From: Candidatus Cloacimonadota bacterium
GTDB lineage: Bacteria > Cloacimonadota > Cloacimonadia > Cloacimonadales > TCS61
Direction: 5' to 3'
Length of the DNA: 64,000 nt
Assembly (NCBI GenBank): GCA_021734245.1
Contig: JAIPJH010000001.1
Coordinates: 65,823-129,822, forward strand
A program made the translations under genes and the position numbers. The notes beneath the pieces were generated by a model, which was given only the letters and a program-made list of their open reading frames with translations, had not been told where the DNA came from and ran no database searches. This document shows, piece by piece, positions 23,112-47,300 of the stretch. The first letter of the stretch is position 1. Each line of letters begins with the position of its first letter.

Positions 23112-24629
23112 ATGATAGAACAAATAAATTATTTTTTGCAGGAATTGATCCAACTTTCCAAACAAGAAAAAGATCATTTGGAATTTATAAAAGACTTTCA
23201 TCAGTTACTGGGCAAAAAACTTAAAGCAAAAGAAACGATCGTTATTCTTCGTATCGACAAATATTTTTTGAGGAGCTCTTTTTTAAATGATAACGAGGAA
23301 TTCTGGGATATTCGCACTAATGATCTGAACGATGAAGAACGCTTTTCAAGATTGGCAGACATTGCTCTGAAAGAAATAAACTATTCTTACGAAAACGATC
23401 TCCTTGCAAAGATTCAAGATAACGGTTTTATCATTATCAAAAATACTGAAAATAATGAAAAACTGGAAATACTGGAAGAAATCAAAGATTTTTTTTATTT
23501 GATCTTCAAATCAATTTATCGTCAATTTCAGCTCATAGAACGTGTAAAAGAATTGAGCTGCCTGCACAGCATAAGCAAGATAGCGGAAGATCATGACCTT
23601 TCTATACCAGATTTTCTGGATCAAATTGTAAATCTACTTCCACCTGCCTGGCAATATCCCGAAATAACACGTGCGAAGATCATCTTCAACGATGAAACTT
23701 TTGCCACAAAAGATTTTGAGGAAAGCCCGATCAATCTGCGTTCAAACATCATGCTGCAAAAAAGAAAAGTCGGATATGTCGAGGTGAATTATCCCGAAGA
23801 TTTTAAACAGAAAGACAGCTACCCTTTTTTGAAGGAAGAAGCAGGACTTATTCGCACAATTGCGCAGGAACTCAGCATAATTCTGGAAAAGAAAAAATCT
23901 GAAGACGAAAGCCGAAAGTTGGAAAAGCAGCTGCTTCATGCCGATAGACTGGCAACATTGGGACAGCTTTCAGCTGGAGTGGCTCACGAGATAAACGAAC
24001 CGCTGGCAGGTATTTTAGGTTTAGCTCAATTGATGGAAAAAAATAACAGCCTGGATCAACAAGCTCTCAATGATCTGGAAAACATTGTGTCTGCCAGTTT
24101 GCATGCCCGGGAAGTTGTTAAAAAACTAATGTTATTCGCCAGACAGGTTCCCTCCAGCCAGACTGATCTGAATTTGAACGAATCAGTTAATAATGCCGTT
24201 TTCTTTCTGGAATCACGCTGCCGAAAAAACATGGTCAAGATCCATCTGGATCTTAAAAAATCCATTCCCAGCATAAATGCCGATTCTTCCCAGATTCACC
24301 AGGTTCTCATCAATCTAATCGTCAATGCTTTGCAGGCGATGCCGGATGGTGGCATTATCAACATCAAAACTTATCAAAATGAAAATACTGCTTTCCTGGA
24401 ATGCAGTGATAATGGTATCGGCATGACAAAAGACGTTCTAAACCAGATCTTCAATCCTTTTTTTACAACCAAAAAAGTAAATGAAGGAACCGGACTTGGA
24501 CTTTCGGTGGTTCATGGCATCATTTATTCTCATGGCGGAGATATCTCGGTTAGCAGTCAGCCGGGCAAAGGTGCAAAGTTCAAGATCAGTTTTCCAATCG
24601 GAAAAGGACTTTTAAATAATGAAGAATAA
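23112..24629 (+). CDS. Cytosolic sensor histidine kinase (NtrB-like)
   Basis: A 505-residue kinase without membrane segments. Residues ~148-265 form a sensor-like domain (LHSISKIAE...LLPPAWQYPEIT...PFLKEEAGLIRTIA) that is clearly related to the N-terminus of the protein at 31079-34228. A HisKA helix with phosphorylated His292 (GVAHEINEPLAG) follows, then an HATPase domain with N box (LINLIVNALQAMPDGG), G1 (SDNGIGM), F box and G2 (GTGLGLSVVHGI). It overlaps the response regulator gene by 11 bases, so they form one two-component system. GAGG precedes the ATG. Confidence 0.92.
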   Translation: MIEQINYFLQELIQLSKQEKDHLEFIKDFHQLLGKKLKAKETIVILRIDKYFLRSSFLNDNEEFWDIRTNDLNDEERFSRLADIALKEINYSYENDLLAKIQDNGFIIIKNTENNEKLEILEEIKDFFYLIFKSIYRQFQLIERVKELSCLHSISKIAEDHDLSIPDFLDQIVNLLPPAWQYPEITRAKIIFNDETFATKDFEESPINLRSNIMLQKRKVGYVEVNYPEDFKQKDSYPFLKEEAGLIRTIAQELSIILEKKKSEDESRKLEKQLLHADRLATLGQLSAGVAHEINEPLAGILGLAQLMEKNNSLDQQALNDLENIVSASLHAREVVKKLMLFARQVPSSQTDLNLNESVNNAVFFLESRCRKNMVKIHLDLKKSIPSINADSSQIHQVLINLIVNALQAMPDGGIINIKTYQNENTAFLECSDNGIGMTKDVLNQIFNPFFTTKKVNEGTGLGLSVVHGIIYSHGGDISVSSQPGKGAKFKISFPIGKGLLNNEE

Positions 24630-25941
24630 GAGAATTTTAGTTTTAGATGATAACAATGTAACTCGCGACGTGATAAAACGAAATTTATCTGCTCATGGTT
24701 TTCAAATCTATACTGCCAGCAATTTCGATCTGACCAAACAGATATTAGAAGAGATCGAACCAGACCTTCTTATTACCGATCTTAAAATGCCTGATATCAG
24801 CGGTTTGGATGTTATCATTCATGTTACCGAAAATTTTAAAAATACAGAAATAATTGTGATAACCGGTTATCCCACCATAAATTCTGCTGTTGATGCTGTG
24901 AAGTTGGGAGCGAACGACTACCTGACAAAGCCTTTTACAGATGTGGAATTGCTGACAGCAGTGAAAAAAGCTTTAGAAAAACAGAGCAATAAACAGGAAT
25001 TTCAGCGTGAGATCTCCGATGGATTTGGCGAGAAATTCGGTATAATCGGAAAATCTGCTAAAATGCTGGAAGTGTTTAAAACCATCAAAAAAGCATCTCA
25101 AATAAACAGTACAGTTTTGATAACCGGTGAAAGCGGAACCGGCAAGGAACTGGTAGCCAGAGCTATTCATTATGCCGGCTTTCGAGCTGCCGCTCCTTTT
25201 GTTCCTATCAATTGCGGTGCTATTCCAGAAACTCTGCTGGAAAGTGAACTTTTTGGTTATGTAAAAGGAGCTTTTACAGGAGCTCACACCACGCGGGAAG
25301 GTTTTTTTCAAAGTGCAGATAAAGGAACTATTTTTCTGGATGAGATCTCTGAAACTTCCATGATGCTGCAAATAAAAATGCTGCGCGTTATTCAGGAAAA
25401 AGAAGTTTACATGGTCGGTTCAAACCGCTGTCAAAAAGTAGATGTCCGCATTCTGGTAGCATCCAATAAAGATCTGTTTGAACTGGTTCAGATCAAAAAA
25501 TTCCGCGAAGACCTGTTTTATCGTTTGAATGTTCTCACGGTTCAAATTCCACCCTTGCGGGAACGCGGTTCCGATATTTTTCAATTGGCGAATCATTTTG
25601 CCAATAAATATGCAGAGGAATTCAATAAAAAAGTTCCGGTTTTCAATGATGAGGTATTAGAAATTTTTGGGCGTTATAACTGGCCGGGAAATGTGCGTGA
25701 ATTGGAAAATCTGGTGCACCGGCTTGTTATAATGAATGAAGACGGTAAAATCTCAAAAGCTGATCTGCCGGATTTTATGAAATCGAGGATCGACAGCTGC
25801 AGCGAAGTAAAACGCAGCTTGCAGGAAGTAGAAATTCAACACATTAAGAACGTGCTGGAATACACTGGAAATAATAAAACCAAAGCAGCTGAAATTCTGG
25901 AAATCGATCGCAAAACATTGAATAATAAGTTGAAAGAATAA
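24619..25941 (+). CDS. NtrC-family sigma-54-dependent response regulator
   Basis: A 440-residue activator in three domains. The receiver has Asp54 as phosphoacceptor in ITDLKMPD and the Thr/Lys switch positions (VITGY, TKPF). The AAA+ domain has Walker A GESGTGKE (~170), the sigma-54-contacting loop GAFTGA (~217), Walker B GTIFLDE and arginine-finger regions. A Fis-type HTH fills the C-terminus (NNKTKAAEILEIDRKTLNNKL). It requires RpoN, encoded at 8084-9544. A near-consensus sigma-54 promoter lies 1.9 kb downstream in front of gdh and is a natural target, though the enhancer site is not identified. The TAA stop lies within dispersed repeat copy C. Confidence 0.95.
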   Translation: MKNKRILVLDDNNVTRDVIKRNLSAHGFQIYTASNFDLTKQILEEIEPDLLITDLKMPDISGLDVIIHVTENFKNTEIIVITGYPTINSAVDAVKLGANDYLTKPFTDVELLTAVKKALEKQSNKQEFQREISDGFGEKFGIIGKSAKMLEVFKTIKKASQINSTVLITGESGTGKELVARAIHYAGFRAAAPFVPINCGAIPETLLESELFGYVKGAFTGAHTTREGFFQSADKGTIFLDEISETSMMLQIKMLRVIQEKEVYMVGSNRCQKVDVRILVASNKDLFELVQIKKFREDLFYRLNVLTVQIPPLRERGSDIFQLANHFANKYAEEFNKKVPVFNDEVLEIFGRYNWPGNVRELENLVHRLVIMNEDGKISKADLPDFMKSRIDSCSEVKRSLQEVEIQHIKNVLEYTGNNKTKAAEILEIDRKTLNNKLKE

Positions 25942-26230: not shown

Positions 26231-27352
26231 TTAGAACAACTTCAAATATCTATCAAACACGAAAAGCTTATTTCTGCTGTAACCAGTCATTTCTTTTACG
26301 ATATTTTTTTCCATCATTAGATTGATTAATGTTCTCATGGTTTTATCAGGAATATCAGTTTTCATTACTAATTCCTTTATGCTCAGGATAGGATTTTCAT
26401 AAAACACGTTAATAATTTTCAGAATCTTTTCTGATCGACTGCCAAAAGTATGACTCAATATTGTAATTTCTTGTTGTAATTCAATTATGTTTACAAATGT
26501 CTGTTTTGTGTTTTCAGAAGTAATTGAGATACCTTTTAGAAAGAATTTTATCCATTGTATGATTTTATTGCTTCGGGCTTCATTCAAGTAATGATAATAT
26601 TCGATTCGATTTTTCTCGAGATAGTCAGATAAATACAAAGCTGGTTTAGTTAAGATATTGTTGGCGATCAGATACAAAGTAATAAGCAGCCTTCCTACTC
26701 TCCCATTTCCATCTAAAAAAGGATGAATTGTTTCAAATTGATAATGCATTAGTGCTAATTTTATTAAATGAGGAACATTATTATTCTCATTAATAAATTT
26801 TTCGAGATCACCCATCAGATCGTTTAAATATTTATTGTGTGGAGGAATGAATTTAGCTTCGGAAAGATTTCTTCCACCAATCCAATTCTGGCTTTTTCTG
26901 AATTCACCCGGGGTTTTCTTTTCATCTCTTCCTGTGCTAAGTAAAATTCTATGTGTTTCTCTTATCAGGCGATTTGATAGAGGTAGTTTTTCTAACATTA
27001 GAATTGCATTTTTCATAGATTCAATATATTGATGTACTTCTAACCAATCATCTCTTCTCTCAGGAGAAATTTGATCTTCTTTCATAACAGCTTCATCAAT
27101 CTCTGTTTTAGTACCTTCAATTTTGCTGGAAGTGTTAGCTTCTTTTACAATGTGCATTTTTATAAACATATCGATGTCAGGGATCAGGTATGAAAACGCA
27201 TTAATTTCTCCAAGTTTTCTATTGGCTTCATCCAATAGAATATTTATGTCTGAATCTTCCCAAATCCAATTGGAATTAATGCTATTTGGCAGAAAAGCTT
27301 TGTATTTATATTCTTGAGTATATTTTCCAGATTTAAAATCTTCTAATTTCAT
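26231..27352 (-). CDS. Fic-family protein AMPylase with autoinhibitory motif and C-terminal winged helix
   Basis: A 373-residue Fic protein that probably transfers AMP (or another nucleotide) to a protein target. The catalytic loop HPFLDGNGRVGR near residue 207 is complete. An N-terminal class II inhibitory motif SSKIEG near residue 73 is present. The last ~75 residues look like a winged-helix DNA-binding domain (ILSIKELVMKTDIPDKTMRTL). The ATG at 27352 follows AAGGA by ten bases and is chosen over a TTG at 27391. The upstream region holds a cluster of TGACAAT palindromes that suits autoregulation. The gene stands alone, with no clear antitoxin partner. Confidence 0.9.
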   Translation of the reverse strand: MKLEDFKSGKYTQEYKYKAFLPNSINSNWIWEDSDINILLDEANRKLGEINAFSYLIPDIDMFIKMHIVKEANTSSKIEGTKTEIDEAVMKEDQISPERRDDWLEVHQYIESMKNAILMLEKLPLSNRLIRETHRILLSTGRDEKKTPGEFRKSQNWIGGRNLSEAKFIPPHNKYLNDLMGDLEKFINENNNVPHLIKLALMHYQFETIHPFLDGNGRVGRLLITLYLIANNILTKPALYLSDYLEKNRIEYYHYLNEARSNKIIQWIKFFLKGISITSENTKQTFVNIIELQQEITILSHTFGSRSEKILKIINVFYENPILSIKELVMKTDIPDKTMRTLINLMMEKNIVKEMTGYSRNKLFVFDRYLKLF

Positions 27353-27380
27353 AATTATTACATCCTTCTCATTTTTATGA

Positions 27381-27479
27381 GACAATGACAATATGGAAAC
27401 TTATTTTGTCAAATAAAACAAAAAATGACAATAAGAAATGCTTTATTGTCACTTCATCGTTTCAATCACAATAAAGCAT
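27381..27479. promoter_or_regulatory. Operator-like palindrome cluster upstream of fic
   Basis: TGACAAT or its complement occurs repeatedly: 27386-27392, 27406-27411 (TTGTCA), 27426-27434, 27443-27451 and a variant at 27466-27475. TGACAATAA (27426-27434) pairs with TTATTGTCA (27443-27451). ATGCTTTATTGT (27438-27449) also pairs perfectly with ACAATAAAGCAT (27468-27479), so the two palindromes share a half. This looks like a binding site for a dimeric repressor, possibly the Fic protein's own winged helix. Confidence 0.6.
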
Positions 27480-27877: not shown

Positions 27878-27894
27878 TTGGCACTGGGATTGCA
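27878..27894 (+). promoter_or_regulatory. Sigma-54 (-24/-12) promoter of gdh
   Basis: TTGGCAC at 27878-27884 and TTGCA at 27890-27894 are separated by five bases, so the invariant GG (27880-27881) and GC (27892-27893) are exactly ten bases apart. This matches the consensus TTGGCACG-N4-TTGCA closely. Transcription would begin near 27905, about 35 bases before the gdh start codon. Confidence 0.85.
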
Positions 27895-27939: not shown

Positions 27940-29223
27940 ATGGAAAAATCTTTCAACGCTTTCAAAATGGCACAGGATCAATTTGATGCTGTTGCCGACA
28001 AATTGAATTTAAATGAAGCAGCCCGGGAACTTTTACGCAATCCGATGCGTGAATATCATTTTAATATTCCTGTAAAAATGGATGACGGAACATCCAAAGT
28101 TTTTCGCGGTTTTCGCATTCAACACAGCGATGCTTTAGGTCCCTGCAAGGGTGGAATTCGTTTTCACCCGCAGGAAACTGTGGACACAGTGCGCGCACTT
28201 TCCATGTGGATGACCTGGAAAACTTCCGTAGTCGATATTCCGCTGGGTGGCGGAAAAGGTGGAGTGATCTGCGATCCGCATAATTTAAGTGCTCGAGAGC
28301 AGGAACAGATCTGTCGCGGCTGGGTTCGCCAGTTAAACCAGAATGTAGGACCACTACGCGATATCCCGGCACCCGATGTGATGACAAACGGCCAGCACAT
28401 GCTGTGGATGCTGGATGAATTTGAAGCAATCACCGGACAAAAATTCCCGGGCATGATCACCGGAAAACCGGTCGGTCTTGGTGGTTCTCTGGGCAGAACT
28501 GAAGCGACCGGTTACGGTGTTATTTTCACAGTAAGAGAAGCTTTGAAAGAAATGAAGATCCAACTGCAAAATACCACAGCTTCTTTCCAGGGTTTTGGAA
28601 ATGTATCTCAGTATGCCATAAAACTCTACAACAAACTGGGGGGAACAGCACTTTGCGTTTCCTGCTGGGATCAAATTGATCAGACTTCCTACGCATTTTA
28701 CAAAAAAGACGGAATTGATCTGGATGAATTGATGAACATAACCGATCGTTTCGGTGGAATCGATAGAAAGAAAGCTGAAGAATTAGGTTATGATGTACTT
28801 CCCGGCGATAAATGGCTTGAAGTGGAATGCGACATTCTGGTTCCTTCTGCTCTGGAAAATCAGATAACAATAGATAATGTAGATAAAATAAATAATAAAG
28901 TGAAACTTATTGCCGAAGGTGCAAACGGTCCAACCACGCCGGAAGCAGATGAAGTTCTGCATCAGCGTGGAATTTTCATGATCCCGGATTTCCTGTGCAA
29001 CGCCGGCGGAGTTACCTGCAGCTACTTTGAACAAGTGCAATGCAACATGAACTACTTCTGGAGCAAAGATGAAGTTCTGGGTAAGCTGGATTACAAAATG
29101 ACAACCGCATATCACAAAGTTTCCAAACTGGCTCGTGATAAGAAACTTTATATGCGTGATGCTGCTTATATGATCTCTGTGGACAGAGTGGTACGTGCTT
29201 CTGTTGCCAGAGGTTGGATATAA
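27940..29223 (+). CDS. gdhA: Glutamate dehydrogenase (Glu/Leu/Phe/Val dehydrogenase family)
   Basis: Catalyses reversible oxidative deamination of glutamate to 2-oxoglutarate and ammonia. The 427-residue length is that of hexameric class I-like bacterial enzymes. The active-site pattern IPLGGGKGGVICDP with the catalytic lysine near residue 106 matches the family signature. Substrate-binding GGIRFHP, DVMTNGQHMLWM and the Rossmann coenzyme domain (SFQGFGNVSQYA) are visible. Coenzyme preference cannot be decided. GGGAG lies about five bases before the ATG. The sigma-54 promoter upstream implies control by an NtrC-type activator, unusual for a fermentative gdh but sensible for amino-acid catabolism. 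Confidence 0.93.
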   Translation: MEKSFNAFKMAQDQFDAVADKLNLNEAARELLRNPMREYHFNIPVKMDDGTSKVFRGFRIQHSDALGPCKGGIRFHPQETVDTVRALSMWMTWKTSVVDIPLGGGKGGVICDPHNLSAREQEQICRGWVRQLNQNVGPLRDIPAPDVMTNGQHMLWMLDEFEAITGQKFPGMITGKPVGLGGSLGRTEATGYGVIFTVREALKEMKIQLQNTTASFQGFGNVSQYAIKLYNKLGGTALCVSCWDQIDQTSYAFYKKDGIDLDELMNITDRFGGIDRKKAEELGYDVLPGDKWLEVECDILVPSALENQITIDNVDKINNKVKLIAEGANGPTTPEADEVLHQRGIFMIPDFLCNAGGVTCSYFEQVQCNMNYFWSKDEVLGKLDYKMTTAYHKVSKLARDKKLYMRDAAYMISVDRVVRASVARGWI

Positions 29224-29244: not shown

Positions 29245-29273
29245 AGGGCAGATCAAGTAAAAGGATCTGCCCT
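29245..29273 (-). terminator. Strong hairpin between gdh and the first ATP-grasp gene
   Basis: AGGGCAGATC (29245-29254) pairs perfectly with GATCTGCCCT (29264-29273). The T-run lies on the left side, so it works as an intrinsic terminator for minus-strand transcription, although the flanking genes are on the plus strand. On the plus strand it is a hairpin without a U-tract, and may instead mark an mRNA processing or stability point between gdh and the downstream operon. Confidence 0.65.
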
Positions 29274-29313: not shown

Positions 29314-31047
29314 ATGATGCAAAGCGGTACAGAATTTAGTCGAGAAAAGGGATTTTTTAACGAAGAATTTAATTACATTGGTACAGGATTGCCGGGTGGA
29401 AAAGCCACCGGACTGGCACAAAGCCAGGAAATTTTGAAGAAGCATTTTCCTGATGGCGAAATTTCTGGAATGAAGATTAACATTCCTGCTACGACTGTTC
29501 TTTTGAGTGATGTTTTTGATGATTTTATGGAAAGCAATGATCTGTATGAAATTGCCCTCTCCGATGCTTCTGATGAGGACATTGCTATCAGTTTCATTAA
29601 CTCTTCTTTTGGCGGAATTTATGCTGGTGATCTGTATTATCTTATCGAAAATATAAAAAAACCTCTGGCTATCCGCTCTTCCAGTATTTGTGAAGATTCT
29701 TTAAAAGAACCTTTTGCCGGGGTGTATGAAACCAAAATGGTTGCCAATAATCAATTTACTCAAACCGATAAATACAATGCTCTGATCAATGCTGTTAAAT
29801 TCGTTTATGCATCGCTGTTCTTTCAGCAATCAAAAGATTATTTCCGCACCATAAATCGTGATATAAAAGAAGAAAAGATGGGAATTATTATTCAGGAAGT
29901 CATCGGAGATCAATTTGAAAATAATTTTCATCCTGCAATTTCCGGTGTATTAAAATCCTACAATTTCTATCCTTCCGACAGTATAAAACCGGATGCCGGA
30001 TTCGCAGCTCTGGCATTTGGCTTGGGAAAAACCATCGTAGATGGCAGCAGTTGCTGGAGTTATTGTCCGCGCTTTCCCAGAACCCCGCAGCCCTTCAATA
30101 ATATGAAAGATCTCCTTAATAATACTCAAAAGAAATATTGGACTATCAATCTGGGAAATATCGATAATCATAATCCGGTAGCAGAAACTGAATACCTTAT
30201 GCAAAACTCCATTTTTGAGATCCAGGATAAATTCCAACTTAAGAACATCTGTTCTACTTACGATTTTGCTAATGATCGTTTGATTATGGGAATTCAAAAC
30301 TATGGAGCACCTGTTCTGGATTTTGCTCCTACACTACGGGCAGAAATGCTGCCCTTGAATACTGTTATCAACAAAATCATGCAAGCTTGTGAAGAAGAGA
30401 CAGGAAATAAAGTGGAAATAGAATTTGCAGTCAGTATCGGGCAGGAGCAGAATCCCGAGCCAAGATTTGGATTTCTGCAATTACGTCCGATAAACATTTC
30501 CAATGAAACTGTTGAAATTCCTGAAAAAGAAATAGATTCTAATGATATATTGCTTTCCTCCAAAAATGCCATGGGAAATGGCATCAGCAAAGATATCTTT
30601 GATATCGTATTTATTCGACCCGACACATTTGAAATCAAGAATACCCAGCAAATTGCCAAAGATGTAGCAGAGATAAATGCTCTATTTTACAATAACAAAC
30701 GCAAATATCTGCTGATCGGTTTTGGACGCTGGGGCACCAGCGATCCCTGGTGCGGCATTCCAGTTCAATGGTCGCAGATTTCCAATGCCAAAGCTATCGT
30801 GGAAACAGTGCTGCCCAGCATGAGAGCAGATTTCAGCCAGGGTGCACACTTCTTTCATAATATGACCGCCCACAATGTGTTCTACTTTTCTGTAAACGAA
30901 GAAGAAGCAAAAAACCTTGACTGGGATTGGATCGACCGACAGAAAACAATCAATGAAACAAAATATGTGAAACATGTCCGACTGCCAGATGATTTGAAAA
31001 TAATGGTGGACGGCAGAAAAAGTGTAGGAATTATCTTAAAAAAATAA
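29314..31047 (+). CDS. PEP/pyruvate-binding (PPDK N-terminal ATP-grasp) domain protein with C-terminal GRWG region
   Basis: A 577-residue cytosolic protein. It begins with a PPDK/PEP-synthase-type ATP-binding domain: glycine-lysine motif LPGGKATGL (~28), the nucleotide-binding RSSSICEDS...PFAGVYETK (~122-143), and the closing FLQLRP (~386-391). It lacks the phosphohistidine swivel domain and the PEP/pyruvate barrel, so it cannot run the PPDK reaction alone. The last ~110 residues contain YLLIGFGRWGTSDPWCG (~467) and GAHFFHNM, a region shared with the next gene. GAGGA precedes tandem ATGs at 29314 and 29317. It is 31 bases upstream of its larger relative. Function unknown. Confidence 0.82.
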   Translation: MMQSGTEFSREKGFFNEEFNYIGTGLPGGKATGLAQSQEILKKHFPDGEISGMKINIPATTVLLSDVFDDFMESNDLYEIALSDASDEDIAISFINSSFGGIYAGDLYYLIENIKKPLAIRSSSICEDSLKEPFAGVYETKMVANNQFTQTDKYNALINAVKFVYASLFFQQSKDYFRTINRDIKEEKMGIIIQEVIGDQFENNFHPAISGVLKSYNFYPSDSIKPDAGFAALAFGLGKTIVDGSSCWSYCPRFPRTPQPFNNMKDLLNNTQKKYWTINLGNIDNHNPVAETEYLMQNSIFEIQDKFQLKNICSTYDFANDRLIMGIQNYGAPVLDFAPTLRAEMLPLNTVINKIMQACEEETGNKVEIEFAVSIGQEQNPEPRFGFLQLRPINISNETVEIPEKEIDSNDILLSSKNAMGNGISKDIFDIVFIRPDTFEIKNTQQIAKDVAEINALFYNNKRKYLLIGFGRWGTSDPWCGIPVQWSQISNAKAIVETVLPSMRADFSQGAHFFHNMTAHNVFYFSVNEEEAKNLDWDWIDRQKTINETKYVKHVRLPDDLKIMVDGRKSVGIILKK

Positions 31048-31078
31048 TAAATAAGGTTGTTATAAATTTGGATACATT

Positions 31079-34000
31079 ATGGATGAATTGAAAAGAAAAG
31101 AAAAACAATTGCTCGACAGCTTGAAAGAAAGACAGAAAGAACTAAACTGCATTCATGGACTGGAAGGAATTCTAATCGATTTTGAATCTCCTCTGGAGAA
31201 TATTTTATACAAGATACTGCGCGTGTTGCCCGATGGATTTCAATTTCCCGAAAAATGTTTTGCAGAAATTGAATACAATGGTAAATCTTACAAAACGTCG
31301 AAACATGAAAACACAATTTACATGCAAAAATCTCCCTTGCATAAAAATAATATAAACTTTGGTGAATTACGGATTTATTATACCGACGTTCCTCCGGAAA
31401 TGCATCACGAGCCATTTTTGAAAGAAGAATATTCTCTTTTAAATACCATTGCCAGTATTCTGGCTTCTTACCTGGTAGTACGTTCCTACAAAGAAAAAAA
31501 TATCAAAAACAATGTGCGCAGCGAATGGCAGGTAATCGTTAATATGCTGCAGAAAACCGATATAAAACTCTTTTTGCGAATCGCCAGGAAACTCTTGAAT
31601 CTGCTATTCCAGAAGGGAATCGAAGAGGTAAAATCGATCTATGCCAGTTTTGGAGATACTACCCGCAATTCCCAATTGGAACTGAGTTCCGAAATAAACG
31701 CTCCGCTGAAGAAAAAAGATTACCGTGAAACCATAAAATTGAGTGATCAGATCTTTGAAATAGCTGCCAGTCATTTTTCCGATAATGAAATGATGGATTT
31801 TATCCGCAAATGGATTCAGGAAGATAAATTGAATTTTCTCACCATTTCTCTGGAAAGTCCCGATTCTACTTTATCCGTTATTCAGGATGCTATTTATCGA
31901 TATCAAAATCAGGAAATCCACAAAGACACATTCTCGCCGTATGCCTACACAAACGTAAAAGTTCTGATGATCCAGAAACTTTTTACCAATCAATTGGAAT
32001 TCATCAATGTAGCCAAAAATTACATCGATCTGGAAGATTTCCAGGAAGTTCTGCAGCACACCATTTTCTCGGGAAATTCGCATGGAAAACTGGGCGGAAA
32101 AAGTACTGGTCTGTTTTTCGCCAACAATATTTTGAAAAGAGAAACTGAGAATGAATTTTTCAAAAATATCAAAACGCCGCAAACCTGGTATATTACATCC
32201 GATACAATGCTCAACTTTTTGCATTACAACAATCTGGAAGAAGTTGTAGAACAAAAATATAAAGATATTGAAATTGTGCGGGCTGAGTATGGAAACATCA
32301 TTCAAATGTTCAAGAATTCACACTTTCCGCATGAAGTGGCCAAAGGACTTTCTCAGCTTCTGGACGGTCTGGGAAATCGGCCGATAATTGTGCGCAGTTC
32401 TTCTCTGTTGGAAGATAGTTTTGGAGCAGCATTTTCGGGAAAATACAAAAGTCTGTTTCTGGCAAATCAGGGCAGCAAGCAGGAAAGGTTAAATGCTTTA
32501 AAGGATGCAATTGCAGAAGTTTACGCTTCCATCGTCGGACCCGATCCGATCGAATACCGTAAAGAACGCGGGCTTCTGGATTTTAAAGAAGAGATGGCAA
32601 TTCTGATTCAGGAAGTTGTTGGCGAAAAATGTGGAAAGTACTTCTTCCCCGCTTTTGCCGGAGTTGCTTTTTCCAACAATGAATTCCGCTGGTCATCACG
32701 CATTAAACGAGAAGACGGACTTCTGCGCCTGGTTCCAGGTTTGGGAACTCGTGCTGTAGATCGGCTCAGCAACGATTATCCTGTTCTGGCATCTCCCGGA
32801 AAACCCGGAATCAGAGTAAATGCCTCCACCGAAGAAATCTTGAAATACAGCCCCAAGGAAATCGATCTGATAAATCTGGAAACGAATTCATTTGAAACCA
32901 TGTCGATCGATAAGCTGCTGCAGGAATGTCGCGACGATTTTCCTCTTTATGATAAACTTTTCTCTGTATACGAACACAATTATTTCACCGAAAAATCTGG
33001 TTTCAGCATAGATTTCGATAAAGATGATCTGATTCCCACCTTCAACGGACTAATCAATAACACAAGTTTCATGAAAAAAATAAAGACAATTCTGGACATC
33101 TTGAAAGCAAAACTCTCTACTCCGGTCGATATCGAATTGGCCGTAAAAAATGATGATATCTATCTGCTCCAATGTCGTCCGCAAAGTTTTTCCAGCGAAG
33201 ATGAACCACAGCCGATCCCACAGGATATTCCAGCCAAAGATGTCATTTTCTCGGCTCATAAACACATTTCAAACGGTTATATTCCAGAAATCAATTATAT
33301 TGTTTATGTCGATCCGGACTGTTATACAAAAATGGAAACCATCGACGAATTACGCCGTGTGGGTCGTTGCATCGGAAAGCTGAATCTGCTGCTGCCAAAA
33401 AAGAAATTTATTCTGCTTGGCCCGGGACGCTGGGGAAGCAAAGGAGATATAAAACTGGGTGTGAATGTATCATACTCGGATATCAACAAAACTGCTGTTC
33501 TCATCGAAATTGCCAGAGAAAAAGGAAATTATGTTCCCGATCTTTCTTTTGGAACGCATTTTTTCCAGGACCTGGTAGAAGCTCAAATTCGTTATATCCC
33601 ACTCTATCCTGATGAAAAAGAAAATATTTTCAACAACAATTTCTTCCGTTTTTCCAACAACATTCTACCCAACATTCTGCCCGAATACGAAGATATCCAA
33701 AAATGTGTAAAAGTTATCGATATTCCCAAAGAAACTGATGGTAAAATCCTGAAAATATTTATGAATGCAGATTTGGAAGAAGCCATCGCTTATGTAGGCA
33801 AGCCGGGAAATCATCGCCGAAATTCTCAGGATAATCCCGAATATTTTGAATCAACCGATGAAAACTACTGGTATTGGCGTTTGCAGGTTGCAGAATATTT
33901 AGCACAAAGCATCGACAGCAGTAAACTTGGTGTAAAAAATATGTACCTTTTTGGAAGTGTGAAAAACGCAAATGCAGGTCCTGCCAGCGATATAGATATT

Positions 34001-34228
34001 TTGGTTCATTTTAAGGGGAACAAGCAGCAAATGGCAAATTTGCAAGCCTGGCTGGAAGGCTGGAGTATTTGCCTCGATCATTTCAATTATCTGAAAACAG
34101 GTTACAAAACGGGTGGTCTTCTTGATGTTCACATCATCACAGATGATGATATTGAAAAGCAAACCAGTTATGCAGCGAAAATTGGAGCTGTAACCGATGC
34201 CGCCAGAAAATTGGAGATGAATAAATGA
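31079..34228 (+). CDS. Sensor / ATP-grasp (PPDK-N) / GRWG / nucleotidyltransferase fusion protein
   Basis: A 1049-residue cytosolic protein. Residues ~18-140 are a sensor-type domain shared with the histidine kinase at 23112 (LHG..., LPDGFQFPE, PFLKEEYSLLNTIA). An uncharacterised helical region follows. The PPDK-type ATP-grasp domain has LGGKSTGL (~337), RSSSLLEDSFGAAFSGKY (~437) and LLQCRPQS (~698). The GRWG region follows (GPGRWGSKGD ~780; GTHFFQDL). The last ~95 residues are a DNA-polymerase-beta-type nucleotidyltransferase with GSVKNANAGPASDIDIL (~958-974) and a third acidic residue in GGLLDVHII. There is no phosphohistidine domain. It could be a nucleotide- or PEP-sensing modifying enzyme. 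The stop overlaps the next start (ATGA). Confidence 0.8.
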   Translation: MDELKRKEKQLLDSLKERQKELNCIHGLEGILIDFESPLENILYKILRVLPDGFQFPEKCFAEIEYNGKSYKTSKHENTIYMQKSPLHKNNINFGELRIYYTDVPPEMHHEPFLKEEYSLLNTIASILASYLVVRSYKEKNIKNNVRSEWQVIVNMLQKTDIKLFLRIARKLLNLLFQKGIEEVKSIYASFGDTTRNSQLELSSEINAPLKKKDYRETIKLSDQIFEIAASHFSDNEMMDFIRKWIQEDKLNFLTISLESPDSTLSVIQDAIYRYQNQEIHKDTFSPYAYTNVKVLMIQKLFTNQLEFINVAKNYIDLEDFQEVLQHTIFSGNSHGKLGGKSTGLFFANNILKRETENEFFKNIKTPQTWYITSDTMLNFLHYNNLEEVVEQKYKDIEIVRAEYGNIIQMFKNSHFPHEVAKGLSQLLDGLGNRPIIVRSSSLLEDSFGAAFSGKYKSLFLANQGSKQERLNALKDAIAEVYASIVGPDPIEYRKERGLLDFKEEMAILIQEVVGEKCGKYFFPAFAGVAFSNNEFRWSSRIKREDGLLRLVPGLGTRAVDRLSNDYPVLASPGKPGIRVNASTEEILKYSPKEIDLINLETNSFETMSIDKLLQECRDDFPLYDKLFSVYEHNYFTEKSGFSIDFDKDDLIPTFNGLINNTSFMKKIKTILDILKAKLSTPVDIELAVKNDDIYLLQCRPQSFSSEDEPQPIPQDIPAKDVIFSAHKHISNGYIPEINYIVYVDPDCYTKMETIDELRRVGRCIGKLNLLLPKKKFILLGPGRWGSKGDIKLGVNVSYSDINKTAVLIEIAREKGNYVPDLSFGTHFFQDLVEAQIRYIPLYPDEKENIFNNNFFRFSNNILPNILPEYEDIQKCVKVIDIPKETDGKILKIFMNADLEEAIAYVGKPGNHRRNSQDNPEYFESTDENYWYWRLQVAEYLAQSIDSSKLGVKNMYLFGSVKNANAGPASDIDILVHFKGNKQQMANLQAWLEGWSICLDHFNYLKTGYKTGGLLDVHIITDDDIEKQTSYAAKIGAVTDAARKLEMNK

Positions 34229-35082
34229 TAAAAGCGTTATTCACCAGCGATTTACACGGCTCAATTCCCAAATATGAATTTTTATTCGAGCAGCTTATAA
34301 AGCAAAAACCGGCAGCTGTATTCATCACCGGCGATCTAACCGGAATCTCTGCAAACTCTTCTCTTTCTGCTGGAATTCACAATTTCTTATCTGATTATCT
34401 GGGTGCTAATCTGCAAAAGATCAAAAACAAAATGAAACAGGACTTCCCGCAAATTTTTGTGATACTGGGCAACGATGATCCAAAATCACAAGAAAGCGTT
34501 CTTAGAAAGCTTTCTGATAAAAATTTGTTGAATTATATTAACGAAAAAATCGTTAAATTCCAAAATTTCAGAATTGCTGGATATTCTTATGTTCCACCCA
34601 CACCTTTTATGAATAAAGATTGGGAAAAATATGATGTTTCCAGATACGTCGATGTTGGTTGCATTTCACCTGAGCAAGGTTATCGAAGTATCGAAGTTGG
34701 CAAGCATGAACTTAGATATAATACAATAAAACGTGACCTTGACCGGTTATTTAAAGATGATCTTTCAAGGACTGTATTTCTGTTTCATTCTCCACCCTAT
34801 CAAACCGATCTGGATCGAGCCGATCTGGACAGAATATTTGTCGATCATGCTCCTGTGGATGTGCACGTAGGAAGTATTGCTATCAAAGAATTTATCTTGA
34901 ACCGATCACCCTATCTCACGTTGCATGGTCATATTCACGAATCTACCCGCATCACCGGAAACTGGATGCAGAAAATCGGAAATACTTTTTGTTTTCAAGG
35001 TGCTTTGGAACGGAATGATATCGGCTTGATTAAGTTAGATCTGGATCATCCTGAAAACGCTGAAATGATTATGTTGGATTAG
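34225..35082 (+). CDS. Calcineurin-like metallophosphoesterase
   Basis: A 285-residue cytosolic phosphoesterase with the metal motifs in order: SDLHGS (~8), TGDLTG (~37), LGNDDP (~81), FLFHSPPY (~188) and LHGHIHEST (~233). Its start codon overlaps the stop of the large nucleotidyltransferase fusion by four bases (ATGA), which indicates translational coupling and a shared task, for example reversing a nucleotidyl or phosphoryl modification. That role is inference; substrate unknown. Confidence 0.88.
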   Translation: MIKALFTSDLHGSIPKYEFLFEQLIKQKPAAVFITGDLTGISANSSLSAGIHNFLSDYLGANLQKIKNKMKQDFPQIFVILGNDDPKSQESVLRKLSDKNLLNYINEKIVKFQNFRIAGYSYVPPTPFMNKDWEKYDVSRYVDVGCISPEQGYRSIEVGKHELRYNTIKRDLDRLFKDDLSRTVFLFHSPPYQTDLDRADLDRIFVDHAPVDVHVGSIAIKEFILNRSPYLTLHGHIHESTRITGNWMQKIGNTFCFQGALERNDIGLIKLDLDHPENAEMIMLD

Positions 35083-41234: not shown

Positions 41235-44200
41235 ATGAATTTAGACAGATTTTTTAAGATTTTTGCAATATTTATTTTTACAAATTTTACAGGCTACCTA
41301 TCAGCCTCGCAACGCAGTTTTATTATAGAATCTTTTGAAGAGCAAAATATTAATTTCTCTTCTTTCGAAGATGAAGATATTGAGCCAGACAGCTATGAAA
41401 TAAGCTCGGAAAACACAGCCAATCCGTATTCTTATTACTCTCTTAAAATCTGGGGAAATACCTGGAAAGTTGAAAATCTCGATCCCATAACATTAAGCGA
41501 AAATTCAGTCTGGCAGATCGATGTATTTTGTTATAATGAGCCTGATATTCAAGGTTTCGGGCTTTCTGATGGAGATAACACGCTTTTCTATTCATTTTTT
41601 GGAACTGAGGAACTTGATATTGAACAGTGGGTTCCGGTTTATCAGGGAAGTCAGCCGCAAGATAATTGGTATTCTTTTCAATTACCTGTAGCAGATGACT
41701 GGTTTGCCTGGTATGAAGAATTGCCAACGATCACAGAAATAATCTTCGTTAATGATGCTGATGATAACAGCGGAATCGTTTATTATGACAATGTTCTGGA
41801 TATTACTGACGACCTTCCAATTCCACCAGAAGTGGAAGTTTCGTTTTCGATCATCAGGAATTTTAGAGACAGAAATGGATTGCGAAATGTAACCATTCAA
41901 TTTTATTCTGATGTTATTGATCCAGACAGCGATGAGCACTCTTTTATCTGGCATTTTGGTGATGGAAACTCTTCAGATCTATCCGAACCGGAACATACGT
42001 ATCTCGTTGAAGATGATCACAGTTACACGGTTTTGTTGGAGGTGATCGATGATACAGAAAAAAGTGGCTTTGGAAGCTGTGAAGTAACGGTTGATCCCGG
42101 CAATACAAGCTTTCCACTTACGATGAATTTTGTGGGCGATGTTATGCTGGCTCGTAATATGCAACAAGTTATTTATAATCAAGGAATGCAATCAATAATT
42201 GATCCCACCTATCCATTTTTAGGAGGAGCAGCAGATATAACGGCAATAAACCTGGAATGCCCTTTTACAAATGCTTATACAAGCCATCCGACCAAATCAA
42301 TAGTCTTTAAAGCCGAACCTGATCATATTTCTGCTTTAGATCATATGGGCACAGATGTTGTTACACTTGCCAACAATCATATCTGGGATTATATGAATGA
42401 TGGACTGCTGGATACAACGAACTACCTTGATTCTCTTGGCATTCCTTATTCAGGTGCAGGAATGAACTCCTGCGAAGCTTATCAACCAGCTTTTGTAAAT
42501 AGATCAGGTGTAAATATAGCTTTTCTGTTCAGCAGCGACAGAACTGGGCAATATAACAATTGTCAGCCATATTTGCAGGCAGGATTCGACAAACCTGGTT
42601 TTGCCTACATGACGCCATATTATGTTTCTCAGCAAATAGATTCTGTGCAGGATGTTGCAGACCTGATTGTTGTTAACACACATTCCGGCAGTGAATATTC
42701 CACAGCTCCTGGTGCAAATTATGATTTTGCCCAACTGTTTCCCGGTTGGGATGAAAAGGATTTCAATGAAGAAGAAGATTTTTCTCCCAGAGCTGATATT
42801 CCTCACATGTGGGATATCGACATCCGTCATCATTTTATCGATTCAGGAGCAGATATTGTAATCTGTCATCACCCGCATGTAATTCAAGGTTTAGAGATAT
42901 ACAACGGAAAACTGATAGCTCATTCTTTGGGAAATTTCATTTTCGATCTCAGTTATGCAGAAACATTTCCATCCATGATCCTGAACACAAAAATCGATGA
43001 AAATGGCTTTGATGAATATTCGATAACTCCTGTTTTTATAGATAATTACATTCCCAGAAGAGCAGAAGGAGATCTGGGAAAAAATATTTTGGAATACCTG
43101 GCAATGCGCTCCCGGGAATTGAATACCTACCTGAAAATCGATCGGCAAAATATTACAGCCGAAGTTATCATCGATACATTACTGATGAATTCACAAATTC
43201 TGGAATTCTCTGAAAGTGCAATATTGACAGATCAGGATACATGCTTCATCTCACAACCCGTCAAGCTAGCCGGAAATGGTTATTTCTCCAAACTGAATTC
43301 TATCCAGCCTGCCGGTAGTTTTGATGTTAGATTTGGCAATGAACTGATTTGGAATGGAAATTACGAAGATGAAGGAAGTACAGAATGGAATGTGAACAGT
43401 GATTACGAATGGTATGATGAAGATGAATATTTTTCCGGTGAAAGATCACTTTGCCTGTTTAGAGATTCCAGCATGGGAATTCATGTTATCACTGATTTAG
43501 AGCATCGCATCAAAAGGCCGACAGGTTCTCAAGTTTCATTACATGGTTATATAAAAACCGATAACGCAGCCGAAGCAAAAATGGAATTCCATAGCTTTGC
43601 AAACCGAAATGGTGGCGATCCGATAACAACTGAAAATATTGGTAATCTTTTTGGAACAAATGATTGGCAATATTTTTCTGTGAATATAAATATGGAAGAT
43701 GAAGCAAACTTCCTGAATATAAATTCCTCGCTTGCACCACCAGATAATGGAGATGCTTATGCCTGGTTCGATGAGGTGGGAATTATTGAATGGACTGCCT
43801 GGCAGAATTTCAATCCCAATATGGAGATCTGGAATCCGAATAATTACCGTTATTTACAGATCAAAACCGATTATGAAATTGCCTCAGTTCAGGTTTTCGG
43901 AGAAGAAACAAATTACAGCAACCCACTGGTACAAAACAATGAAAACCAGATTCCGGATTTAAAAACAGCAAAGTTGCATCAGAATTATCCTAACCCCTTT
44001 AATCCCAGCACAACTATTTCATTTTCATTGAACACTGAAATTAGCGAAAATACTGAATTGAATATTTATAACCTAAGAGGCCAGAAAGTTAAATCTTTCA
44101 GAAATCATGCTGAGTTTATCGAAACCTTTGGTAATCCAAACACTTATTCGGTAACTTGGAACGGTACAAACAATAATAACAAACACGTTTCTTCCGGAAT

Positions 44201-44267
44201 CTATTTCTACCAGTTAAAAGTGGATGGAGTAGCCATTGCAGCCAGAAAGTGCCTGCTGCTAAAATAA
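41235..44267 (+). CDS. Secreted CapA-like metallophosphatase with PKD domain and T9SS-type sorting tail
   Basis: A 1010-residue exported protein. A signal peptide (1-~24) and a jelly-roll-like domain (~35-190) come first, then a PKD domain (~197-287; HSFIWHFGDGNSSDLSEPEH). Next is a CapA/PGA-type metallophosphatase (~297-620) with NFVGDVMLARN, NLECPFT, TLANNHIWDY, NTHSGSEY and CHHPHVIQGLE. A second carbohydrate-binding-like beta domain (~690-860) precedes a C-terminal sorting domain (~905-1010) with QNYPNPFNPSTTISF, NLRGQKVKSF and a final KCLLLK. CapA proteins are linked to poly-gamma-glutamate; a surface role in polymer handling is inference. Confidence 0.82.
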   Translation: MNLDRFFKIFAIFIFTNFTGYLSASQRSFIIESFEEQNINFSSFEDEDIEPDSYEISSENTANPYSYYSLKIWGNTWKVENLDPITLSENSVWQIDVFCYNEPDIQGFGLSDGDNTLFYSFFGTEELDIEQWVPVYQGSQPQDNWYSFQLPVADDWFAWYEELPTITEIIFVNDADDNSGIVYYDNVLDITDDLPIPPEVEVSFSIIRNFRDRNGLRNVTIQFYSDVIDPDSDEHSFIWHFGDGNSSDLSEPEHTYLVEDDHSYTVLLEVIDDTEKSGFGSCEVTVDPGNTSFPLTMNFVGDVMLARNMQQVIYNQGMQSIIDPTYPFLGGAADITAINLECPFTNAYTSHPTKSIVFKAEPDHISALDHMGTDVVTLANNHIWDYMNDGLLDTTNYLDSLGIPYSGAGMNSCEAYQPAFVNRSGVNIAFLFSSDRTGQYNNCQPYLQAGFDKPGFAYMTPYYVSQQIDSVQDVADLIVVNTHSGSEYSTAPGANYDFAQLFPGWDEKDFNEEEDFSPRADIPHMWDIDIRHHFIDSGADIVICHHPHVIQGLEIYNGKLIAHSLGNFIFDLSYAETFPSMILNTKIDENGFDEYSITPVFIDNYIPRRAEGDLGKNILEYLAMRSRELNTYLKIDRQNITAEVIIDTLLMNSQILEFSESAILTDQDTCFISQPVKLAGNGYFSKLNSIQPAGSFDVRFGNELIWNGNYEDEGSTEWNVNSDYEWYDEDEYFSGERSLCLFRDSSMGIHVITDLEHRIKRPTGSQVSLHGYIKTDNAAEAKMEFHSFANRNGGDPITTENIGNLFGTNDWQYFSVNINMEDEANFLNINSSLAPPDNGDAYAWFDEVGIIEWTAWQNFNPNMEIWNPNNYRYLQIKTDYEIASVQVFGEETNYSNPLVQNNENQIPDLKTAKLHQNYPNPFNPSTTISFSLNTEISENTELNIYNLRGQKVKSFRNHAEFIETFGNPNTYSVTWNGTNNNNKHVSSGIYFYQLKVDGVAIAARKCLLLK

Positions 44268-44361: not shown

Positions 44362-47300
44362 ATGAAAAAAATAATTTGGATTTTCCTGCTGTCTTTTTCT
44401 TTATCACTACTTGCAATCGATATTCAGCTTCAAGATTCTAATTCTGCTGTATTTATCAATGGAGATTTTGAATTAGCGAACATCAAACATCATCAAGCTA
44501 CGAATTACAAAGTAAGTTCATTACAATTGGATGAGTGCATAAATACCGGTAAATTAGGAGAAGCAGAATTACCTGTTTACTCCAAATTTATTTCACTTCC
44601 CGAAACTGGAAATTTCAAGATCAGTAATGTAAAATATAAATTTGAAGAAATAGATTTAGAAGACAAAATAGTAAGCGTTGGTTGGCAGGATGAAATTCCA
44701 ATTTCGGAATCTTATTATCTGCAAAACAAATGGTTGCCTCAAAACCTTGTTACAATCAGCGATCCGAACATTATGCGTTCTTATCGCTTTGCTCAGGTAT
44801 CAGTGGCAGCAGTTCAATACAATCCTGCCCTAAATAAGATCAGGATTATAAAAGACCTGGAACTTGAATTGGAACTGGATAGAAGTATATCCAAAAATCC
44901 TCTTACCAAAAAGAAACCGTCACCTGCTTTCGAAAAAATTGCCGAAGAAAATATTCTGGGAACAGAAAACATCAGAACTTCTGAATCTGCAAATTATCTG
45001 GTAATAGCTCCGGATAATGTTTCCGACACGATACAACCACTATTACGAGCCAAAGAGAAACTCGGTTTTAAAACACGTTTGGCTCTGCTTTCCGAAACCG
45101 GCAGCAACGAAAATCAGATCAAAGATTTTATTCAAAATGCTTATGATAACTGGGAAAATCCACCAGAATATGTTCTACTTATCGGAGATGTAAATGGCTC
45201 GATTTCTGTTCCGGCCTTTTTCGTAGAAGGTTACCTGCATCCAACCTGTGTTACAGATCATACCTACACACTTCTTGAGGGCACAGATTACTTTCCTGAT
45301 GTTCTTATCGGAAGGATATCCGTGCAAAGTGAATTTGAACTCAACACAGTAATTGCCAAGATTATAAACTACGAATTCAATCCTTTTATAGACGCAGATT
45401 GGATGACGCGAGCTCTCATGGTCAGTTATGTGCAAGACGATTACTGGCAGTTCTTCTCCCCCCGTGAAACCGTGATGGAAGTGCGCAACAAACTTTACGA
45501 TTTTGAATATACAGTCGTGGACACTTTTATTGCTCCCTGGAATTCAGGTTCATCAAACCTGCGAAATATGATAAATACAGGCTATTCATTTGTGAATTAT
45601 CGCGGTTGCGGCGGACCGGAATACTGGGCTGGTCCCAATGGTCAAATGTTCAGCATCAATGATGTTATACAGTTAAATAACGGCTCACTTTTACCATTTG
45701 TAACCAGCATCACCTGTGGTGGAGGAAACTTTGCTTATATGGGAATTAATTCTGTGTTTGGCGAAACCTGGCTGACTGCGGGAACTCCTTCCTTCCCAAA
45801 AGGAGCGATAGGTTTCATCGGACCAAGCGAACATGATACCAAAACCTGGTTCAATAATGCCAATGATATGGGAATCTACCAGGGAGTTACTCACGAAGGC
45901 CTTTACAGAGGTGGCGAGATGTTACTGCGGGGAAAGATGGAATTGTATAACAATTATCCGTTCAGTCACGCCTGGGGAAATTCATTAAATTCCGATCAAT
46001 TCTATTTTTACGTCTACAATCTCTTGGGAGATCCCGGACTTTCAGTAATGACCAGAATGCCTCAGAACATTGAATTTGAGCATCCTGCAGAAATAAATAC
46101 ATTTGATAATTTTATTCCAGTTACCATCACAAGTCCGATGCTCGGATCCTCGGATTTTACAATCGCTATTACGAATGCAGATAGCCTGGTGGCAAAAGGT
46201 TTTTCAGATGAAACTGGATCGGTGAATATACCTCTGGAAAGTTTACCGGAAGGAACATATGAAACAACTGCTTCCAAATATGGTTTTATTCCTGAAGTGA
46301 GTAGTTTTAATATTGTCCAACAAGACATTGTTACTGTCACAAATATTATCTGTAATGATCCAAATGCAGGTGAATTGGTAGATTTTACTTTCAGCATAGA
46401 AAATCCTACAGCAAATCAGGAAGATGTAAGTTTAGAATTTTCTTCTGAAAATGATTTTGTGGAAGTTTATAATCCCGGTTATAATTTTCAAATATCAGCT
46501 GGTGGAACTGAAAACGTGAATGCACAATTCAGTTTAGACAGCAGCTGGCTCGACACAGAGCCTTTTAACATCATAATTGAATTAACCTCTTCATCTGGTT
46601 CACAAGAATTTCTATTACAAAATTCCGAGAAATCTCCAATGACGGCTTTTTCGGAAATGAATGTAGCAAATCTGGAAGAATGCCTGATGCAGAACCAAAC
46701 CAACGATTTTTATATTGAGCTCTTAAATTGCGGTAGTATGCAGGCAGAAGTGTTCCAGGTAGAGCTTTTCAGTTTAAATAACAACGCCACGATCATCAGC
46801 GGTTCCAGCAGTTATCCGCAAATTTCTATGAATGGAACTGCCTGGAATCAAGATGTTTTCCAGGTAGAAGTAGCAGATGTGATGAGTGGAGAAATGGCAA
46901 AATTTCAAATGAACATCATCCTCGAAAATGAAACAGTTCAGGAACTCATCATTTCGGTTCCGATTGGTATTATTAATGAAGAAAGTCCAACCTTCTGCGA
47001 TTATAGTTATTATGCCTTGGAAAGCCAGGATTCAGGCAATTTCACAGCTCCTGTTTATGATTGGATAGAGATCGATCCCGGCAATGGTGGAAGTGGAACA
47101 GTTATCAATCCTGTTCATACTACCTACGATGGTGAGATCGCAATCGTTGACCTTCCTTTTACATTTAGATATTTTGGTGATTATTTCGACAAAGTTTCCA
47201 TCTGTTCAAATGGTTATGTAAGTATGGGAGAATCCGAAACGATCTTTCATCGCAATCGCATGATCCCTTCCGGAGTTGGTTCTCAAGCTATGATAGCACC

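Follow-up and report, generated by a model that had tools for sequence, protein, structure and literature searches.

A glutamate dehydrogenase-linked ATP-grasp, GRWG and nucleotidyltransferase module in Cloacimonadota, a candidate covalent-modification control system

Glutamine synthetase is under nucleotidyl control by GlnE and GlnD, a system with a writer and an eraser. A 64,000-nucleotide stretch of a Candidatus Cloacimonadota bacterium (assembly GCA_021734245.1, contig JAIPJH010000001.1, positions 65,823 to 129,822; the window) carries, behind a glutamate dehydrogenase (GDH) gene, gdh, three genes encoding p577, p1049 and a metallophosphoesterase (MPE), and this locus resembles GlnE/GlnD in that a nucleotidyltransferase (NT) with a putative writer and eraser arrangement would regulate a nitrogen-assimilation enzyme, but differs in having other domains, GDH as the neighbouring enzyme and an added ATP-grasp module; no match to the GlnE or GlnD families was found in Pfam or NCBIfam.

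VadK (Rv1127c) of Mycobacterium tuberculosis, a PPDK-derived ATP-grasp protein, is described as a histidine kinase that regulates a metabolic pathway (PMC13400623), and is thus a precedent for a PPDK derivative turned regulatory histidine kinase. VadK retains a phosphohistidine domain (His422), whereas p577 and p1049 have in its place a domain named here GRWG, and the locus adds an NT, a sensor and an MPE. The same ATP-grasp domain (5hv6, 9goj) occurs in HpeHI, CreHI, PpsAB and rifampin phosphotransferase, some of which are split into two proteins (PMC12167813, PMC4844700); those require a T/SxxGGxxxH swivel, which is missing here. The NT shares a small fold with GSxxx..DxD with MNT/MntA of type VII toxin-antitoxin systems, but its partner is an MPE and it is fused to sensor, ATP-grasp and GRWG domains. 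The MPE shares a calcineurin-like metal site with Aq_1956-like metallophosphoesterases (2yvt), although the match is weak by sequence (E 0.021 only), and its family carries a conserved insert, PPTPF..KDWE.YDVS. No description of this gene set, or of covalent GDH control of such make-up, was found in open-licence PubMed Central papers; one mention of PPDK_N, in ProFaNA, concerns the neighbourhood of SelO and is unrelated.

Linkage to glutamate dehydrogenase

Coordinates are those of the window; the features from the upstream histidine kinase gene to the MPE lie on its plus strand unless noted. By Pfam and NCBIfam, gdh (27940–29223) encodes a glutamate dehydrogenase of 427 residues, of a subfamily termed GDH1. 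It is followed by p577 (29314–31047, 577 residues; PPDK-type ATP-grasp at residues 28–405, then GRWG at residues 393–577), p1049 (31079–34228, 1049 residues; sensor, helical linker, ATP-grasp, GRWG and NT) and the MPE (34225–35082, 285 residues), whose start ATG at 34225 overlaps the p1049 stop TGA at 34226–34228. An earlier sequence-only reading had given these three open reading frames, the sizes of the two large proteins and translational coupling of p1049 to the MPE through the ATGA overlap, and all are confirmed. It had also described an isolated trio lying behind a sigma-54-driven gdh; the three genes are indeed neighbours in related genomes, and an exact promoter lies 5' of gdh, but conservation holds for gdh-p577-p1049 as a unit, usually accompanied by an MPE that is often convergent, and gdh, which that reading underrated, is the main functional clue.

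The comparison covered 59 related genomes, mostly metagenome assemblies in which several loci are cut by contig ends. In most of those bearing p1049, p577 and p1049 are adjacent and directly behind a GDH. GDH1 members, which are at least 72% identical, were found in 19 of the 59, and 19/19 carry p577/p1049 or gdh-adjacent fragments of them at contig ends. A GTDB genome scan with an NT profile gave at least 509 relatives, and the best 80, i.e. those most similar to Cloacimonadota NT sequences, were retrieved. Among these best 80, matching gene clusters extend across roughly fifteen bacterial phyla, the titles of the metagenome-assembled genomes naming Acidobacteriota, Aminicenantes, Zixibacteria, Krumholzibacteria, Eisenbacteria, Planctomycetes, Bacteroidales, Bacillota, Deltaproteobacteria, Gemmatimonadetes, Calditrichota, Coatesbacteria, Muiribacteriota, Armatimonadota and others. 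Such titles are not always reliable: an Armatimonadota-titled locus (L106) matches one in a Cloacimonadota-order genome (L043, G022:C130) with identical gene coordinates and GDH identities, and its title is probably wrong. Among the loci examined there was no named locus in a cultivated organism.

At least 3.2 kb of upstream sequence was available for 52 ATP-grasp-NT loci; a same-strand gdh lies no more than 3 kb upstream in 38 of them and p577 in 30, against a chance expectation for upstream gdh of about 0.07 loci (assuming three gdh genes per 3.5 Mb); the MPE is next door in 34 of the 58 loci with at least 1.2 kb downstream, 30 of the 34 being convergent. All linked GDHs belong to one subfamily, 60–86% identical to the window gdh and about 33% to a second subfamily, GDH2. 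Because the p577-p1049 adjacency recurs in most p1049-encoding relatives and in many other phyla, the gene set is no chance array. Firmicutes loci have gdh-p1049 without p577. In a Muiribacteriota locus (L077) p577 and p1049 are fused into one protein of 1627 residues, which is independent support for the two acting together.

A further set of ATP-grasp/GRWG proteins is linked to GDH2, which is 33% identical to GDH1. These response-regulator-type paralogues, of about 1000 residues and often in tandem, carry two receiver domains N-terminal to the ATP-grasp and GRWG domains, and 18 of the 34 related genomes bearing them have them immediately 5' of GDH2. In 26 non-Cloacimonadota genomes, coordinates compared by eye placed a paralogue beside GDH2 in 8 and beside a GDH1-type gene in 2. 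In two paralogues of one genome (L066, L067) the first receiver seems to be without the usual phosphoacceptor Asp, and the second looks canonical. Since two divergent GDH subfamilies are each tied to their own ATP-grasp/GRWG proteins, coincidence is an unlikely cause of the linkage; the conserved gdh-p577-p1049 unit, strengthened by the paralogues beside the second GDH, makes GDH the main clue to function, and the data point to a module that controls GDH or its substrates.

ATP-grasp and GRWG domains

The ATP-grasp domains of p577 and p1049 (the latter at 32087–33226, residues 337–716) match Pfam PPDK_N at 99.8 and 199 bits, both above the curated cut-off, and the two proteins align over 538 residues at 28% identity (E 1e-35). 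The Lys, Arg, D/E-x-E and QxR expected of a PPDK_N ATP-grasp are present: K341, R439, D684, E686, Q698 and R700 are invariant among 62 p1049 orthologues, and GGKxxG, RSSS..ED, V[DE]IEFA and LQxR are retained by a large majority of relatives of the p577, p1049 and response-regulator types. In the full p1049 structure model (pLDDT 83, pTM 0.68), this domain resembles rifampin phosphotransferase (5hv6, target-normalised TM 0.70), PPDK and HpeI (9goj, E 3.6e-10). Sequence and model together show a complete PPDK-type active site, by which p577 and p1049 are predicted to bind ATP. Neither protein has a Pfam match to the PEP-utilizers swivel PF00391, and a C-terminal phosphoenolpyruvate (PEP)/pyruvate barrel is not among their Pfam and NCBIfam matches.

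The GRWG domains lie at 30490–31047 in p577 (residues 393–577; invariant His512 at 30847–30849) and at 33188–33754 in p1049 (invariant His827 at 33557–33559, opening a helix). When 72 of these regions, taken from p577, p1049 and the response-regulator-type proteins, are aligned, nine columns do not vary; among them are the GRWG Arg, one Glu, one Ser and the SxG[AST]HFF His. The isolated p577 domain is predicted confidently (pLDDT 91, pTM 0.89). Searches returned no fitting Pfam family, no meaningful sequence match in the PDB and no PDB fold match to the model by Foldseek (best E 0.066, TM at most 0.31); GRWG is a domain undescribed in the Pfam and PDB libraries. Its invariant helix-start His had prompted the idea of a homologous phosphohistidine swivel, which was rejected on the results of Foldseek and of hhalign, run with positive and negative controls: GRWG scored 1% with phosphohistidine-swivel profiles, where the positive control (PPDK swivel versus PtsI swivel) reached 97%. 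The T/SxxGGxxxH swivel motif is absent, and SxG[ST]HFF is found instead. The sole clue to phosphotransfer by GRWG is that conserved His at the start of the predicted helix, which hints at such a role. The domain content thus bears out what had been read from sequence, namely PPDK-type ATP-grasp domains with their key motifs in both proteins, no swivel and no PEP/pyruvate barrel, and a common C-terminal GRWG region that is not a known phosphotransfer domain by profile and fold searches; the sensor-like N terminus and complete C-terminal NT ascribed to the larger protein were likewise recovered, as described below.

Nucleotidyltransferase and metallophosphoesterase

The NT domain of p1049 (33860–34225, residues 928–1049) has a complete GS...SDID...LLD motif and matches Pfam NTP_transf_2 at 31.9 bits; G32, S33, D44, D46 and D89 are invariant in the NT alignment, giving the pol-beta-type GS, DxD and third Asp, and the model resembles 2rff and the MNT antitoxin 7ae9, of the MNT protein-AMPylating fold. 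NCBIfam MntA scores 25 bits, below its cut-off of 60. The window MPE has no Pfam match; its orthologues match PF00149 at 48 bits, and the metal site D9/H11/D37/N83/H188/H234/H236 is invariant in 11 orthologues.

Of the related genomes, 26 have NT and 23 have MPE: both are present in 22, NT only in 4, MPE only in 1 and neither in 32 (Fisher p 3e-11; both in 22 of the 27 with either). In three NT-only genomes (G002, G008, G046) the contig stops at or just beyond the NT gene, and completeness is 67% in the fourth (G027) and 72% in the single MPE-only genome, where the contig is cut. Since the presence of the two is near one-to-one, also when they are unlinked, the distribution supports a writer/eraser pair, as the sequence-only reading had proposed; the ATP/PEP-status trigger that it attached to the pair is not supported. 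Addition of a nucleotide to a protein by NT, and its removal by MPE, is rated slightly more likely than not. For such an eraser, RNase Z is a recent precedent of metal-dependent AMP removal from proteins (PMC12663964).

Ten Cloacimonadota genomes have only a sensor-NT (about 320 residues) or NT alone (about 128 residues), normally beside the MPE, and all ten carry response-regulator-type ATP-grasp/GRWG proteins, as a fragment in one (G031). The short NT forms group within Cloacimonadota with one full-length sequence (tree support 0.83), and the sampled non-Cloacimonadota loci all have the full form, which disfavours the short forms as ancestral and makes loss the simplest reading of their origin. 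These genomes indicate that the ATP-grasp/GRWG part goes with GDH1, and that NT and MPE are a separable unit. NT genes at two loci (L062, L063; G018:C69, G012:C116) seem interrupted, by an in-frame TAA and by split frames, beside an intact MPE, possibly an early loss of the writer. Three large secreted-type proteins of the window (41235–44267, 44362–47973 and 47987–52846) have C-terminal regions of about 100 residues, probably a sorting signal, that match proteins beside NT-MPE pairs in other Cloacimonadota.

Regulatory input, mechanism and rival explanations

The sigma-54 (-24/-12) promoter TGGCACNNNNNTTGCW (27879–27894) has the exact consensus, lies 46 bp 5' of gdh and is the sole zero-mismatch match within the window. 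Upstream are a histidine kinase (23112–24629), which adjoins gdh in several relatives, and a sigma-54-dependent (NtrC-type) response regulator (24619–25941), which probably activates transcription of the gdh operon; at four loci (L046–L049) kinase and activator are directly beside gdh. The GAF-like sensor of p1049 (31079–31513, residues 1–145) is also found in this kinase (33% identity, E 1e-15); the domain is classed as GAF in some orthologues and is present in further kinases too. Because kinase and p1049 have the same sensor domain, one kind of signal may act on both transcription and p1049. A Fic-type protein (HPFxDGNGRxGR motif) is encoded at 26231–27391 on the minus strand, between regulator and gdh, and looks like an insertion, since the regulator adjoins gdh without it in L046–L049. 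Between gdh and p577 lies a perfect 9-bp inverted repeat, GGGCAGATC-9 nt-GATCTGCCC (29246–29272), without a T-run, which is possibly a partial terminator or processing hairpin and could cap the gdh mRNA, fixing the ratio of enzyme to regulator.

In the mechanism that we propose, the kinase and sigma-54 regulator would switch on gdh-p577-p1049, as promoter and neighbours suggest, and p577 and p1049 would form a pair of ATP-binding ATP-grasp/GRWG proteins; a phosphoryl group would be passed through or onto GRWG, the invariant His being the likely acceptor, and this phosphotransfer would tune GDH activity upon input from the GAF-like sensor. The C-terminal NT of p1049 would nucleotidylate a target and the MPE would take the nucleotide off, a pairing suggested by their co-occurrence; candidate targets are GDH or the ATP-grasp/GRWG proteins, among which are the response-regulator-type paralogues next to GDH2. 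Linkage to GDH has good support, and a conserved GDH-linked regulatory system is probable, whereas the chemistry and modified target are inferred. That the system controls glutamate dehydrogenase metabolism by covalent modification is given an even chance; formation of a phosphoenzyme on His by the ATP-grasp/GRWG part falls a little below that, and GDH itself as the modified protein is a tentative suggestion. Equally tentative is the broadest formulation, a new signalling-enzyme class in which an ATP-grasp domain would phosphorylate a non-swivel GRWG His and control GDH, with GAF or receiver input and NT/MPE cross-regulation, in about fifteen phyla and with two GDH subfamilies. Several observations weigh against the proposed mechanism. 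gdh is absent beside p1049 in 14 of the 52 loci, and NT and MPE, both present, are unlinked in at least four related genomes (G006, G015, G021, G036). NT and MPE are also kept in the ten genomes without GDH1, p577 or full p1049, so GDH1 would not be their sole target, and modification of GDH1 only, by either, is ruled out. GRWG has no swivel homology, and its putative acceptor His is suggested by conservation and helix position only; linkage, moreover, would look alike for action on GDH and for action on glutamate, 2-oxoglutarate or a shared signal.

A pathway would predict linkage to a metabolic gene equally, and the nearest solved ATP-grasp relatives are the small-molecule dikinases rifampin phosphotransferase, HpeI and PPDK (PMC12167813), so that p577 and p1049 might instead be ATP-dependent (di)kinases or ligases acting on a GDH product such as glutamate or 2-oxoglutarate, with GRWG binding the substrate and NT/MPE modifying the same molecule. 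This is considered unlikely: sensor and receiver domains, tandem divergent paralogue pairs and the sigma-54/histidine-kinase association favour regulation, the attached sensor and receiver domains being the reason for taking the ATP-grasp/GRWG proteins as regulators, and neither a swivel nor a known substrate-binding domain was found. A still less probable explanation is that GRWG is a phosphohistidine swivel, either far diverged or reached by convergence, which would make the proteins dikinases of one or two components like RPH, HpeHI and PpsAB. The order of ATP-grasp and then a domain with an invariant helix-start His (SxG[ST]HFF) is the same, and the top-probability Foldseek match of the GRWG model (0.25) is carbamoyl phosphate synthetase small subunit, the N domain of which presumably has a swivelling fold; the 1% profile comparison beside its 97% control, the lack of a PDB fold match and the missing published motif (PMC12167813) speak against it. 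A stress, toxin-antitoxin or anti-phage module with the NT as an MNT-type antitoxin or effector is very improbable and was disfavoured. In its favour are the match of the NT to the MNT fold (7ae9) and PADLOC candidate matches, of the NT to PDC-S09 and the MPE to PDC-S10 (33860–35082), which are weak and likely reflect general family resemblance. Against it, the NT partner is the MPE, with no HEPN toxin identified adjacent, the other neighbouring open reading frames not having been scanned for HEPN, and a conserved position behind gdh in many phyla with a single copy per genome is unlike defence genes.

Glutamate dehydrogenase stands at the junction of carbon and nitrogen metabolism. If the proposed control of GDH metabolism is true, the locus would do for GDH what classical covalent control does for glutamine synthetase, and a common, unannotated group of 'PEP/pyruvate-binding' proteins would gain a function. 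It would also supply structural biology with a new domain and provide a candidate writer/eraser pair for protein nucleotidylation, and since the four proteins are apparently soluble, the idea is directly testable.

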